Positions 26,305 through 32,500 of a stretch of 64,000 nt of DNA are shown here, piece after piece (the stretch's first letter is position 1; every line of letters begins with the position of its first letter). Origin of the DNA: an uncultured Saprospiraceae bacterium (lineage in GTDB: Bacteria; Bacteroidota; Bacteroidia; Chitinophagales; Saprospiraceae); assembly GCA_937929945.1 (NCBI GenBank), contig CALFUK010000026.1, forward strand, positions 1 to 64,000, read 5' to 3'. The notes below the pieces were generated by a model, which did no database searches, had not been told where the DNA came from, and saw nothing but the letters and a program-made list of their open reading frames with translations. The translations under genes and the position numbers were made by a program.

Positions 26305-26814
26305 ATGCCTTGTTCAAGTAGTTCTACTTATATATTTACTCAGATCAATCATATCCTGAATCGGCTGGAAGAAGCTGACTATGTCCAGCCGTTAGATGTC
26401 TTTAACGGATCTACGCTGGGACAGCACTTCAGGCATATCTTAGACTTCTACAGCTGCGTAGTGAAAGGGGCTTCTCATGGTGAGGTGAACTATGGTTGCA
26501 GGGATAGAAGTGTGTCTATAGAGACTAATATAAAACTTGCTCAGGATCAGTTTGCGCAGCTGCAAGGCCAGATAGATGGTTTATCTGATGATCAGGTGCT
26601 GGGTGTCGTCACCGACTTCCACAAAGAAGCTGGGGATGGACACGAAGTCGTACAGTCTTCCGTCGGAAGAGAATTAATGTTTGCTTACGACCATGCCATT
26701 CACCATATGGCGATGATTCGGATTGGGATCAGAGATCAGTTCAGTTATGTAGATATAGATGGCGCCGTTGGCATGGCCTCTTCTACGATTAATCACAGCG
26801 TATCAATACATTAA
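26305..26814 (+). CDS. DinB-like protein
   Basis: 169 residues. The pattern is a DinB-like helical bundle: STLGQHFRHILDFYSCVV with the first His pair, then SVGRELMFAYDHAIHHMAMIRIGI with the closing histidines. The core is short and diverged compared with the other two DinB genes in the window. It starts 16 nt after folD, and its stop overlaps the prmA start by 1 nt (TAATG), so all three are co-transcribed. Function unknown. Confidence 0.82.
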   Translation: MPCSSSSTYIFTQINHILNRLEEADYVQPLDVFNGSTLGQHFRHILDFYSCVVKGASHGEVNYGCRDRSVSIETNIKLAQDQFAQLQGQIDGLSDDQVLGVVTDFHKEAGDGHEVVQSSVGRELMFAYDHAIHHMAMIRIGIRDQFSYVDIDGAVGMASSTINHSVSIH

Positions 26815-29095: not shown

Positions 29096-29341
29096 CTATT
29101 GGTTATCTCGCCATTCGTAGACCCATTTTGCTTGGATCTGCTCGAGGTGTCCCTCAGTGCTATTCTCTTTGGTACCTTCAAAAGTGGGTATTTCGAGAAT
29201 CCACTCTAAGAGCTCTGTGAATCTGATTCGATAGATTTTACTCTCAGTAAAATCATCACCAAATCTCTCGTATAGCTTCATGGCTATATCCTCGTGGTCG
29301 GGCCAGTTGATGGGTAAATCATCGAAATCTTCGAATGCCAT
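29096..29341 (-). CDS. iscX: IscX-like Fe-S assembly protein
   Basis: 81 residues, about the usual size of IscX with a short N-terminal extension. Acidic surface and family pattern: WPDHEDIAMKLYERFGDD, IRFTELLEWILEIPTFEG and the end LEQIQAKWVYEWRDN. IscX binds the cysteine desulfurase IscS and iron and adjusts the rate of cluster assembly. The gene lies 9 nt after the ferredoxin gene, the same fdx-iscX order as in proteobacterial isc operons, but without iscU, hscA or hscB beside it. Confidence 0.88.
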   Translation of the reverse strand: MAFEDFDDLPINWPDHEDIAMKLYERFGDDFTESKIYRIRFTELLEWILEIPTFEGTKENSTEGHLEQIQAKWVYEWRDNQ

Positions 29342-29350
29342 ATCTTAAAA

Positions 29351-29692
29351 TTAATGTTCGTGTCCTATGATGCCAGATTGGTCAGGAATGGTGACCTCTA
29401 TCTCAGCGTCCTGATTGAGTATGATGCATTGACAAGCTAATCTTGACTCTATCCGAGGGTTGCTGGCGCGATCAATGAAATCTTCTTCTTTATCAGATAT
29501 TTCTTCCAAGCTATCTCCACCTTTCTCTACGTATACGTGGCAGGTACTGCAAGCGCACACGCATCCACAGTTATGATTTAGGTGAATATCATTATCCTCT
29601 GTGACTTCTTGGATGGTGAATCCTGCTTCCACATTTTCTATGACCTTAGTCTCAAGGCCATTTTCTTCAAATAAAAACTTAATTGTCGCCAT
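29351..29692 (-). CDS. fdx: [2Fe-2S] ferredoxin, adrenodoxin/ISC type
   Basis: 113 residues of beta-grasp ferredoxin. The cluster loop is HNCGCVCACSTCH, with the last ligand in ACQCIIL 37 residues later; two cysteines in the loop beyond the four ligands are notable. The acidic helix DSLEEISDKEEDF matches adrenodoxin-type partners. It supplies electrons for Fe-S assembly. First gene of the fdx-iscX-ubiA-maf unit. Confidence 0.93.
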   Translation of the reverse strand: MATIKFLFEENGLETKVIENVEAGFTIQEVTEDNDIHLNHNCGCVCACSTCHVYVEKGGDSLEEISDKEEDFIDRASNPRIESRLACQCIILNQDAEIEVTIPDQSGIIGHEH

Positions 29693-29869: not shown

Positions 29870-32500
29870 ATGTCTCAAGCTAACGAACAATTAGAAATCA
29901 AAAAATATAAGTTTAAAGAGCTCAAAGTATACTCCTCTACAGAATGGCTTGCTGATAATAAAAAGAAATACAGGCAAGTTTTTGATCGCTTTGAAGTCAC
30001 CTACATATACGCAGAATTATCATTTTACAATAAGTTTTTTGATAATGAGAACTGGGAGGTAGACATTGATCTGCGCTGCTATGAGCTGAAGAAGAGTCGT
30101 AAGAAGCTGTGCTCTCTATCCATCAAGAAGCAGGTTAGCAAGTTTGACAATGTGGTCTATGTCAGAGAGGGGTGGGGCAACAAGAAAGAGGGCGCTTTCT
30201 GGAAGAGTGGTACTTATTATTGGGAGGCCTGGATCGATGGTGAGAAAGTCGCCACTAAGTATTTCTACATAGAGGATGCTGGGATCAATTATGAAAGTAA
30301 TCTGGACAGTCCCTATGTGGATATCTATTCGCTTAAGCTCTATGAAGGTCAATACGATGATGTCATAGAAGCAGAGAGAGTCTACCACACCGTATTCAGC
30401 TGTGAGGAGACGAGGTACATCTATGTAGAGATGGCACTGAAGAATCTGATATCTACCTCTAATTGGCACTGCGAGCTTTTTATCAAATTCTATAATCAGG
30501 CCAGGGAGCTGAAAGGACAGGTCGTCAAGCTGCAGAATGTCAAATCAGATGATGAATTCATCAAAGTCACTGCAGGGTGGGGTACGAATGTCAAAGGTAG
30601 CTGGAGATACGGATCTTACACCGTGGAGATTATATTCATGGACAAACTATTAGCTGTCATCCCATTCGAAGTCAGCGATGAATTTATCGAAGGGATCGTG
30701 CCAGTGCAGCTACCTAATAGCCAAGTGCCTTTGGTCCTAGTACAAGACGAGGGCGTCAATCAGAGTTTTGAGGAGGTGATGCTTAATTTGGATTCGCTGA
30801 TTGGTCTGCAAGCCATCAAGCGGCAAGTACTGGATCATGCCAAATACATTCAGTTTCTACAGCTTAGGAAAGATAAGGGATTTGCAGAAAGAGAAGAGAT
30901 TAACATCCACTCGGTATTCACTGGTAATCCAGGTACAGGTAAGACGACTGTCGCTAATATGATGGGCTTACTCTATAAGAAAATGGGGCTGCTCTCTAAA
31001 GGACACGTGCATGAGGTGGATCGGGTAGACCTGGTCGGAGAATACATTGGACAGACCGCGCCTAAGGTGAAAGAGGCCATTGAGAAAGCACGTGGTGGAG
31101 TCCTCTTCATAGATGAAGCATACTCACTGGCCCGCACGAATGATGATAGTAAAGATTTCGGTCGCGAAGTCATAGAGATATTGGTAAAAGAGATGTCTAA
31201 TACGGAGCGCGATTTCGCAGTGATCGTAGCGGGATACCCCAAGGAAATGAAGCACTTCATTGATTCTAATCCGGGGTTGAAATCTAGGTTTAAGCTATTC
31301 TACCATTTCACTGACTACCTACCGCAGGAGCTATCCGAAATAGCCAGCTATGCCGCACAAGAAATGGAAGTAAGCTTCATGCCTGATGCCAAGGAAAGAA
31401 TCGACGAGATCATCACCGAGGCATTCCGTAATCGAGATAAATCCTTTGGAAATGCCAGATTCGTGTATGATTTAGTGGAAAAAGCTAAAATCAATCTGGG
31501 ACTCAGGTCCATGGATCAGTCAAGTCCGAAGTCCTTAGAGTATGACTATCTGAAGCAAATCCTACTCGCGGACGTCAATAAAATTAAAATCAAGCAGCAA
31601 AAAATCATCCCGCGCATCCCGATTGACTATGAGCTATTGGATAACGCACTCGCTGACTTAGATAATCTCATTGGTATAGCGGAGGTCAAAAAGCAAATAT
31701 TAGAACTGGTCGATATCGTCAAATACTATCGAGAGACGGGTAAGGAGGTGCTCAATAAATTCTTTTTACACACGGTATTTGTCGGTAATCCTGGTACGGG
31801 TAAAACCACTGTAGCCAGAATACTCACCCAAGTATACAAGGCATTAGGCATCTTAGAAAGGGGCCACATGGTCGAGACTGACCGACAGGGGCTGGTCGCT
31901 GGCTACGTCGGCCAGACAGCCATCAAGACGGCCGAGATCATCGATGAGGCTATGGGGGGCGTCCTATTTATAGATGAGGCCTATGCACTCACCAGTAGAT
32001 CGTCCTCTTATGGAGACTTTGGTAATGAGGCAGTGCAGACGATACTAAAGCGAATGGAGGATCATCGAGGCGAATTCTTCGTATTTGCTGCGGGATACCC
32101 AGACAACATGGAGCAATTCTTGAAAGCCAATCCAGGGCTAAACTCCAGATTTGACAAAATTCTTAAGTTCGATGATTACGAGCCAGAGGAGCTGGGCCAG
32201 ATCGCCGAGAAGATGCTGACAGAAGATGAATTCGTCCTGTCTGCTAAAGCCAAAGACCTGCTCATCAGTGAGCTCATTAATCTCCATCTAAGAAAAGACA
32301 AGTATTTTGGTAATGCACGTACCGTACGCACTATCGTATCAGATATCATCCGATACCAAAACCTGCGACTGGCATCTCAGCATGTAGAAGGTAAGCCACG
32401 CATACTCTCTAACAAGATTGCTGAGAGTGATGTGATCATGGCGGTGAAGGTTAAAACTGATGAAGCCTTTAAAAAGAGTTCCATTGGTTTTGGTAATTGA
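29870..32500 (+). CDS. Tandem CbbX/SpoVK-type AAA+ ATPase with duplicated N-terminal domain
   Basis: 876 residues. Two similar beta-rich domains form residues 11-145 and 150-275: each has a YIY-E-L/M strand, a SNW or ENWEV strand and a GWG...K-G-W/FW...SGTYYWE or YGSYTVE hairpin. Two AAA+ modules follow. Walker A is GNPGTGKTT at 352-360 and again at 639-647; Walker B is GGVLFIDEAY at about 409-418 and 696-705; each has the VGEYIGQTA or VAGYVGQTA pore-type segment and a GNPGLxSRF arginine-finger region. Both sites look intact. The family (CfxQ/CbxX, SpoVK, EccA) remodels protein assemblies. No signal peptide, so cytoplasmic. The partner is unknown. Confidence 0.9.
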   Translation: MSQANEQLEIKKYKFKELKVYSSTEWLADNKKKYRQVFDRFEVTYIYAELSFYNKFFDNENWEVDIDLRCYELKKSRKKLCSLSIKKQVSKFDNVVYVREGWGNKKEGAFWKSGTYYWEAWIDGEKVATKYFYIEDAGINYESNLDSPYVDIYSLKLYEGQYDDVIEAERVYHTVFSCEETRYIYVEMALKNLISTSNWHCELFIKFYNQARELKGQVVKLQNVKSDDEFIKVTAGWGTNVKGSWRYGSYTVEIIFMDKLLAVIPFEVSDEFIEGIVPVQLPNSQVPLVLVQDEGVNQSFEEVMLNLDSLIGLQAIKRQVLDHAKYIQFLQLRKDKGFAEREEINIHSVFTGNPGTGKTTVANMMGLLYKKMGLLSKGHVHEVDRVDLVGEYIGQTAPKVKEAIEKARGGVLFIDEAYSLARTNDDSKDFGREVIEILVKEMSNTERDFAVIVAGYPKEMKHFIDSNPGLKSRFKLFYHFTDYLPQELSEIASYAAQEMEVSFMPDAKERIDEIITEAFRNRDKSFGNARFVYDLVEKAKINLGLRSMDQSSPKSLEYDYLKQILLADVNKIKIKQQKIIPRIPIDYELLDNALADLDNLIGIAEVKKQILELVDIVKYYRETGKEVLNKFFLHTVFVGNPGTGKTTVARILTQVYKALGILERGHMVETDRQGLVAGYVGQTAIKTAEIIDEAMGGVLFIDEAYALTSRSSSYGDFGNEAVQTILKRMEDHRGEFFVFAAGYPDNMEQFLKANPGLNSRFDKILKFDDYEPEELGQIAEKMLTEDEFVLSAKAKDLLISELINLHLRKDKYFGNARTVRTIVSDIIRYQNLRLASQHVEGKPRILSNKIAESDVIMAVKVKTDEAFKKSSIGFGN

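Follow-up and report, generated by a model that had tools for sequence, protein, structure and literature searches.

The SpoVK-CbbX-EccA clade of classical AAA+ ATPases contains remodelling proteins that act on narrow targets and whose N-terminal domains are variable, as described in the accessible part of the clade study (PMC10659427). The prevailing view is that each of them remodels one client and works without a protease; their N-terminal regions vary widely, with a beta-prism mentioned in some CbbX-like proteins, and the same part of the text indicates 'as yet unstudied contexts' for the clade (PMC10659427). We have analysed a gene for a two-module ATPase of this type in a 64,000-nucleotide stretch of DNA (the whole stretch is called the window here; positions 1 to 64,000 of contig CALFUK010000026.1) from an uncultured Saprospiraceae bacterium with a genome of 5.07 Mb (99.8% complete). 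The gene (29870..32500, plus strand, ATG start) encodes 876 amino acids (aa) arranged as a tandem beta domain with immunoglobulin (Ig)-like sandwiches, AAA+ module 1, AAA+ module 2 and a C-terminal tail containing the tripeptide IGF. It is present in a single copy, and its product is the sole AAA_lid_6 protein found in its own genome. A first-pass annotation of the locus described the ATPase modules and the N-terminal duplication and left the client unknown, but its description misses the conserved C-terminal tripeptide, which turns that statement into a concrete two-protein question. In the literature surveyed, most of which was covered superficially, neither the 876-aa protein nor its N-terminal domain was found described, and no IGF tail was reported for the clade.

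The tail KKSSIGFGN (residues 868-876; 32471..32497, plus strand), with I-G-F at residues 872-874, directly follows the last lid helix of module 2. In the predicted structure, residues 867-876 have a predicted local distance difference test score (pLDDT) below 50, and the stretch is variable among the relatives. A tripeptide of the form hydrophobic-[GS]-[FY] was found in all 79 complete C-termini, with 0-15 residues after it. The set of 79 came from 85 proteins: three longer than 1000 residues and three truncated at the C-terminus were set aside, and three truncated at the N-terminus were kept. The forms observed were IGF (63 proteins), LGF (5), IGY (4), VGF (3), MGF (2), AGF (1) and ISY (1). 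The motif [ILVM]GF lies within the last 30 residues in 73 of the 79 proteins. In 1000 shuffles of the tails the corresponding number averaged 2.9 and never exceeded 10, and of the other open reading frames (ORFs) from the same loci, 23 of 573 have the motif there. Elsewhere in 58 of these proteins, [IVLM]GF occurred only 8 times in 48,731 residues, a survey which covered the GF form. The context of the tripeptide is basic in many of the 79 tails, with Lys or Arg at position −3 in 65, at −2 in 43 and after the tripeptide in 42; position −1 is usually Gly, Ser, Thr or Arg. Paralogues with an N-terminal identity of 35-42% keep the tripeptide, and so does the single-AAA form L109 of another family. 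It outlasts the surrounding linker in divergence and, judged from the sequences compared, is near-invariant.

The tail tripeptide resembles the element by which Clp ATPases contact their peptidase. Their docking consensus for ClpP is (L/I/V)-G-(F/L), as given in the portion of the report available (PMC8745299), and the docking tripeptide, carried on a flexible loop, enters hydrophobic pockets of ClpP according to excerpts of two studies (PMC8745299, PMC9035409). The genome harbouring the window encodes one ClpP, and the adjoining gene is clpX (NCBIfam ClpX model, 599.6 bits, cut-off 359). In this ClpX, IGF is located at residue 270, within NTQVIGFRK. The 876-aa protein resembles ClpX and ClpA in that a flexible element bears a tripeptide of the (L/I/V)-G-(F/L) type, and ClpA also has two AAA modules. 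We infer docking on ClpP because the tail matches both the published consensus and the ClpX of its own genome. By this analogy ClpP may be the partner, a tentative and, taken by itself, rather doubtful assignment; that the tail docks on some partner is fairly probable. Both estimates are matters of judgement.

In the reading that we prefer, the protein would be a cytosolic hexameric two-ring unfoldase or remodeller of the SpoVK-CbbX-EccA clade, with module 1 as the entry ring and module 2 as the exit ring, and the pore-loop aromatics of the two rings would thread the client. The two Ig-like sandwiches would form a flexible crown capturing the client directly or via an adaptor, six flexible I-G-F tails from the exit ring would insert into hydrophobic pockets on a partner ring, for which the ClpP peptidase is the likeliest candidate, and the unfolded clients would be passed on for degradation. 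Taken as a whole (a two-ring unfoldase whose Ig-like pair receives the client and whose tail docks, most likely on ClpP), this reading falls somewhat short of an even chance. Hexamer formation and threading are predicted from the behaviour of the family, and client capture by the sandwiches would be in agreement with the pattern of the clade; that the pair is also found in proteins lacking AAA modules is what one would expect if it serves for binding. It is conceivable, and on balance unlikely, that the protein represents a so far undescribed class of ATP-dependent protease component, namely a two-ring CbbX-clade machine docking on ClpP by free C-terminal IGF tails and using the Ig-like pair as its substrate receptor, which would provide Saprospiraceae with one more ClpP unfoldase.

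Several observations weigh against ClpP as the partner. Linkage to clpP is rare, as only 2 of 127 loci contain a homologue, both from genus g62 and both several genes away from the ATPase gene. In these two loci (L129:6230-12506 and L132:397-7978), the clpP-like gene follows the ATPase gene on the same strand at a distance of 3.1 and 4.4 kb, respectively, within a co-directional run, which is a weak link; both homologues were recognised by NCBIfam Clp protease subunit models with scores lower than that of the ClpP of the window's own genome. In a third g62 genome, no clpP was present within the 5.3 kb examined downstream. ClpP was found in 12 of 14 control genomes and is therefore so widespread that its co-occurrence with the ATPase says little. 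The 876-aa protein, whose docking is a prediction, also differs from ClpX and ClpA in its AAA+ clade and in the position of the tripeptide, which in those two ATPases is part of a loop of the AAA+ domain and not of a C-terminal tail. Moreover, the third position of the tail tripeptide is never L, which ClpA uses (IGL), and it is Y in 5 of the 79 proteins. None of the 18 examined relatives with three AAA modules carries the tail motif. The 79 members share descent and were counted unweighted, so they do not represent 79 independent events. Finally, in the part of the clade study that was accessible, its authors report no sign that members associate with peptidases (PMC10659427).

If the protein does dock on ClpP, the tail geometry of proteasome ATPases and the tripeptide of Clp ATPases would be united in one machine, and ClpP would be, to our knowledge, the first peptidase to partner a SpoVK-CbbX-EccA protein. 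It would mean a new unfoldase class in the ClpP system and would offer a handle for finding clients in a large, little-studied environmental family. The conserved ClpP-type tripeptide makes the view of the clade as working without a protease directly testable with two proteins.

The strongest competing explanation is that the protein is a dedicated assembly or remodelling chaperone without a peptidase, whose Ig-like crown recognises one housekeeping client which the double ring pulls and then releases; the tail would then bind something other than a peptidase, be it a different partner, a site on the membrane or the machine of which it is part. SpoVK (MurG), CbbX (Rubisco) and EccA are precedents, and the narrow targets and variable N-terminal domains reported for the clade, within the portion of the study seen, point in the same direction (PMC10659427). 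The genomic setting also fits. The gene is a single-copy gene present in most sampled relatives, and none of its neighbours in Saprospiraceae recurs widely, which is what would be expected if the client were encoded elsewhere. A same-strand downstream gene at a distance of up to 60 bp was found in 13 of 65 Saprospiraceae loci, and clustering of the neighbours revealed no such close downstream family common to more than a few of them. The statement of the first-pass annotation that the client is not visible from the neighbourhood was thus borne out. What a peptidase-free chaperone leaves unpredicted is the convergence of the tails on [ILVM]-G-[FY], a known docking tripeptide. We consider this explanation a substantial possibility, only slightly less probable than the preferred reading.

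Alternatively, the IGF tail could be an element acting on the protein itself, as a pore plug, an autoinhibitory segment or a turnover signal. Such a role would be compatible with a tail that is modelled at low confidence (pLDDT below 50 at residues 867-876) and directly follows module 2, and a precedent is known from Listeria, where the C-terminus of ClpP2 occupies its own H site, as stated in the excerpt available (PMC9035409). The same low confidence, in a model of one chain, does not point to a binding site within the molecule, and the variable distance of the tripeptide to the end of the chain (0-15 residues) fits an intermolecular short motif better, although neither amounts to a test. 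We regard a self-acting tail as improbable.

A further explanation came from relatives with three AAA modules, which were surveyed in 40 loci from families f36, f54, f65 and f66; 37 of these loci encode a triple-type protein. The gene groEL lies directly upstream of the beta-AAA gene, on the same strand and at a distance of 110-133 bp, in 4 of the 40 loci. All four belong to f54 (L101:4260-10177, L105:5201-9591, L107:4054-10184 and L248), where 11 loci were surveyed; a groES-like gene precedes groEL in each of them, and groEL is at position −2 in a fifth locus. This arrangement in f54 would suit a proteostasis helper of GroEL handling the clients of the chaperonin or their rejects. The four loci out of 40, however, come from three genera and possibly reflect one or two events, and two of the four linked proteins (L101 and L105) lack Walker motifs in their later AAA modules. 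No groEL-like recurring gene appeared in the Saprospiraceae neighbour clusters, the search directed at groEL having covered the 40 loci only. A role as a GroEL helper is accordingly an unlikely explanation for the window protein.

In 20 of the same 40 loci, e.g. L184:6681-13014, an ATP-binding cassette (ABC) ATPase gene (+1) and an ABC_tran_2 (PF16949) membrane gene (+2) follow the beta-AAA gene on the same strand, and the gap to the ABC ATPase gene is below 60 bp in 10 of 12 cases measured. This coupling would support a chaperone whose client is the downstream transporter in the triple-AAA lineages and an equivalent one in Saprospiraceae, but PF16949 was detected in 0 of 40 genomes among the window's relatives, its own genome included, so that this ABC transporter cannot be the client here and the explanation is very improbable. 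In another locus (L188:3893-8871), genes encoding a SiaC-family regulator and a DUF6272 protein immediately precede a second triple-AAA copy, an arrangement that suggests a signalling context.

The assignment of the 876-aa protein to the SpoVK-CbbX-EccA clade as a two-module member is supported by both of its AAA+ modules. Pfam AAA and AAA_lid_6 (PF17866) each match twice above the cut-off. Module 1, taken as the N-terminal ring, comprises residues about 300-570 (30767..31579, plus strand), and module 2, taken as the C-terminal ring, residues about 587-867 (31628..32470, plus strand), as delimited by Pfam, matches to sequences in the Protein Data Bank (PDB) and the model. The conservation of the motifs was followed in alignment A2, which was drawn from 69 non-redundant relatives after 12 had been left out (fragments, other architectures and the complete proteins L043 and L073). 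Walker A reads GNPGTGKT in both modules (residues 352-359, 30923..30946, and 639-646, 31784..31807, plus strand), with K358 and K645 kept in all 58 members. Walker B reads VLFIDE in both, overlapping with FIDEAY (residues 411-416, 31100..31117, and 698-703, 31961..31978, plus strand), and D415, E416, D702 and E703 are likewise present in 58/58. The retention of Walker A and B in both modules, as first noted at this locus, thus holds throughout the members aligned. The pore-loop aromatic is Y392 in module 1 (GEYIGQT; 31043..31045, plus strand; Y or F in 58/58) and Y679 in module 2 (AGYVGQT; 31904..31906, plus strand; Y or F in 57/58), and the arginine finger of each module is kept in all 58 aligned full-length members.

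Features described as typical of the clade were also found. The sensor-1 GY, a signature given in the clade study (PMC10659427; here G455-Y456 and G742-Y743), and the sensor-2 arginine, a second arginine finger (R530 and R817), are present in 58/58. An invariant Asn (N467 and N754) also stands ahead of the SR arginine (R473 and R760), but by our count at a distance of six residues. Helices were modelled ahead of Walker A at residues 300-308 and 314-335 in module 1 and at 587-599 and 604-622 in module 2. The protein thus combines an AAA_lid_6 lid with a predicted two-helix hairpin before Walker A, a trait shared with FtsH, the hairpin being read from the helix positions alone. The best solved sequence match of module 1 is CbbX (3zuh, E 1.4e-53; 3syk also gave E about 1e-53), and that of module 2 is EccA1 (9lur, E 5.6e-47). 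By Foldseek, CbbX was matched, followed by the two-ring machines Drg1/AFG2, Rix7 and Cdc48/p97. The full-length single-chain AlphaFold2 model has a predicted template modelling score (pTM) of 0.46, and its domain arrangement is not reliable.

The N-terminal part was said to be an internal duplication of a beta domain, and this was clearly confirmed. Residues 18-136 aligned to residues 155-270 with a score of 105, against a mean of 31.6 (standard deviation 5.6) and a maximum of 67 in 2000 shuffles. The profile of unit 1 found unit 2 in 62 of 62 members and vice versa (E<1e-3), whereas shuffled units gave 0 matches out of 992. Unit 1 spans residues about 13-135 (29906..30274, plus strand) and is homologous to unit 2, which spans residues about 150-269 (30317..30676, plus strand); their limits come from AlphaFold2 models. 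With a 63-sequence alignment, AlphaFold2 predicted two eight-stranded all-beta sandwiches (mean pLDDT 94.5, pTM 0.88). The best solved match of the pair by Foldseek was the two-domain protein RbmA (E 4e-9, template modelling (TM) score about 0.3, root-mean-square deviation (rmsd) 13.8), the high rmsd probably resulting from a different orientation of the two domains. With a single domain, VIA-align gave AlkC (5vhv residues 253-365; Z 10.8, rmsd 3.2, 109 residues aligned), glycoside hydrolase family 2 (GH2) enzymes (Z 10.7), the carbohydrate-binding domain of Wzt (8dne; Z 10.6, rmsd 2.5, 105 aligned) and PA1606 (3n6y; Z 9.8, rmsd 3.9, 114 aligned). These whole-domain matches of the modelled units to solved Ig-like domains indicate an ordinary fold of the Ig and fibronectin type III (FnIII) kind, and since many unrelated Ig-like proteins tie, they name the fold and not the function.

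By sequence, the domain had no significant match in the libraries searched. Residues 1-277 had no Pfam match at E<=10; the sole match of residues 9-287 was to an effector family (E 0.025, 14.6 bits, cut-off 27) and was taken as chance. Residues 1-287 had no NCBIfam match at E<=0.01, and the best matches to PDB sequences were not significant (the pair reached E 0.73 and the unit profile E 0.23). When all 63 members of alignment A1 were scanned with Pfam, 26 families appeared, and the best 25 of the 26 were each found in at most four members. A relative that lacks an AAA module matched PapC_N (E 4.7e-5), DUF3859 (E 0.0024) and DUF6941 (E 0.012), all below their cut-offs. The domain is therefore new as a sequence family and common as a fold, so that the first impression of an unrecognised domain was right for the sequence and not for the fold. 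Structure prediction and fold search did not turn the N-terminus into a known module with an assigned client. The architecture proved to be unusual insofar as it joins an unnamed domain to a motor with no visible client; it is neither a lone oddity nor the bearer of a new fold.

The expectation in the first-pass annotation that CbbX-like remodelers normally have a single module and a known client was not supported. Double-module clade proteins are present in a Ligilactobacillus plasmid (925 aa, annotated only as an AAA family ATPase) and in Streptomyces (1124 aa, with a beta-helix), triple ones exist as well, and the unstudied contexts of the clade are mentioned in the passages of the clade study consulted (PMC10659427). 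The 876-aa protein resembles CbbX in its AAA core (37-39% identity by Foldseek), the GY of sensor 1 and the sensor-2 Arg, and differs from it by its two modules, the Ig-like N-terminal pair and the IGF tail. The NCBIfam model of CbbX, TIGR02880, scored 411.5 bits over two stretches, below its cut-off of 459.25. CbbX is the activase of red-type Rubisco and is encoded beside it; at the window locus, no Rubisco was found among the eight neighbours scanned, one of which (26305-26814) gave no match at all. SpoVK has one AAA module and a short N-terminal domain and occurs in sporulating Firmicutes, in contrast to the two modules, Ig-like pair and Saprospiraceae relatives of the window protein; the SpoVK equivalog model TIGR02881 gave a whole-protein score of 508.7 (cut-off 422.95), which exceeds the cut-off only as the sum of two stretches. 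The likeness to EccA, a type VII secretion chaperone, consists in EccA1 being the best solved match of module 2 and in the TPR-like N-terminal regions (TPR, tetratricopeptide repeat) of the triple-AAA relatives. The EccA model TIGR03922 remained below its cut-off (412.2 versus 466.65 bits), no TPR was seen among the best 25 of the 36 Pfam matches of the window protein, and its N-terminal 277 residues are predicted to fold as beta sandwiches. p97/Cdc48, Drg1 and Rix7 share two tandem classical AAA modules with it by fold match. These machines have an N-terminal recruitment region; no sequence relation was found for the N-terminal part of the 876-aa protein. TM-scores to the two-ring machines were low (0.21-0.25 by query length), the domain arrangement of the single-chain model being unreliable.

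The protein is widespread among Saprospiraceae and their relatives. The N-terminus was found by protein search in 73 of 100 genomes, including that of the window (in G012 only as a different protein), and 11 of the 100 had a second N-terminal match with 35-42% identity. In a phylum-wide sample, a 57-row unit profile matched 45 of 395 genomes, mostly from families f36 and f54 of another class, which we take, as a guess, to be Ignavibacteria. The sister form in f36, f54 and f65 consists of TPRs, one beta unit and three AAA modules, mostly in about 1260-1370 aa, three proteins of 764, 1005 and 1100 aa being shorter. It is like the window protein in its homologous beta unit and its orthologous modules 1 and 2, and differs in having one beta unit, TPRs, a third module, groESL or ABC transporter neighbours and no IGF tail. 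Judged by the patterns applied, Walker A and B are kept in module 1 in 37 of 37 loci, in module 2 in 34 of 37 and in module 3 in 21 of 37.

In phylogenetic trees, module 1 of the window protein groups with module 1 of the triple proteins (support 99/98 in both trees), and its module 2 joins the second modules of these proteins (100/97 and 100/98); module 3 of the triple proteins is separate (100/99). The Ligilactobacillus-plasmid and Streptomyces double proteins represent separate within-protein duplications (100/99 and 100/97). The first tree was built from 72 selected AAA modules and the repeat from 71, without the long rows L101_M2 and L101_M3 and with one phage SpoVK-like protein added; the modules were hand-picked, the bootstrap of the second tree had not fully settled, and both trees are unrooted and show splits, not dated events. 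Since modules 1 and 2 are orthologous across both architectures, the proteins form one family in which both modules were long retained. The order of beta domain, module 1 and module 2 is probably older than the split of the lineages, and two-module proteins of the clade appear to have arisen more than once.

Other combinations of these elements were also observed. The tandem beta pair without an AAA module was found in four proteins of 278, 306, 661 and 777 aa, with N-termini that look signal-peptide-like by eye (L099:6526-7362, L189:5418-6338, L104:5113-7098 and L122:1845-4178); none was recognised by Pfam at the cut-off. The single-AAA form L109:6862-8658 (598 aa) has both beta units, a module grouping with module 2 and an IGF tail. 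Three ORFs of 1386-1712 aa (G162:C139, G166:C15 and G212:C40) contain 5-6 tandem AAA_lid_6 stretches, two of these stretches being below the cut-off.

In the window, the gene stands alone, as was noted at the outset. Genes for IscX and a 2Fe-2S ferredoxin, identified by family matches, lie divergently upstream (29096..29692, minus strand), and an outer-membrane-barrel gene is convergent downstream. A divergent ferredoxin gene is at position −1 in 24 of 64 relatives' loci having an upstream gene (only divergent cases were counted) and other neighbours are found elsewhere; the arrangement is therefore read as synteny, and a link to iron-sulphur metabolism through ferredoxin and iscX was rejected. 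An origin from a mobile element or phage was also rejected, as tblastn revealed no N-terminal homologue in plasmids or phages at E<=0.01, and none was found by a pattern-based scan of viral contigs. A defence system was discarded too, the PADLOC matches being generic AAA matches to IetA, TRIP13 and others. Searches of the window for Rfam families and tRNAs gave a single match, a tRNA at about 526-600, and nine promoter-like sites were found versus 6.9 (standard deviation 2.4) expected.

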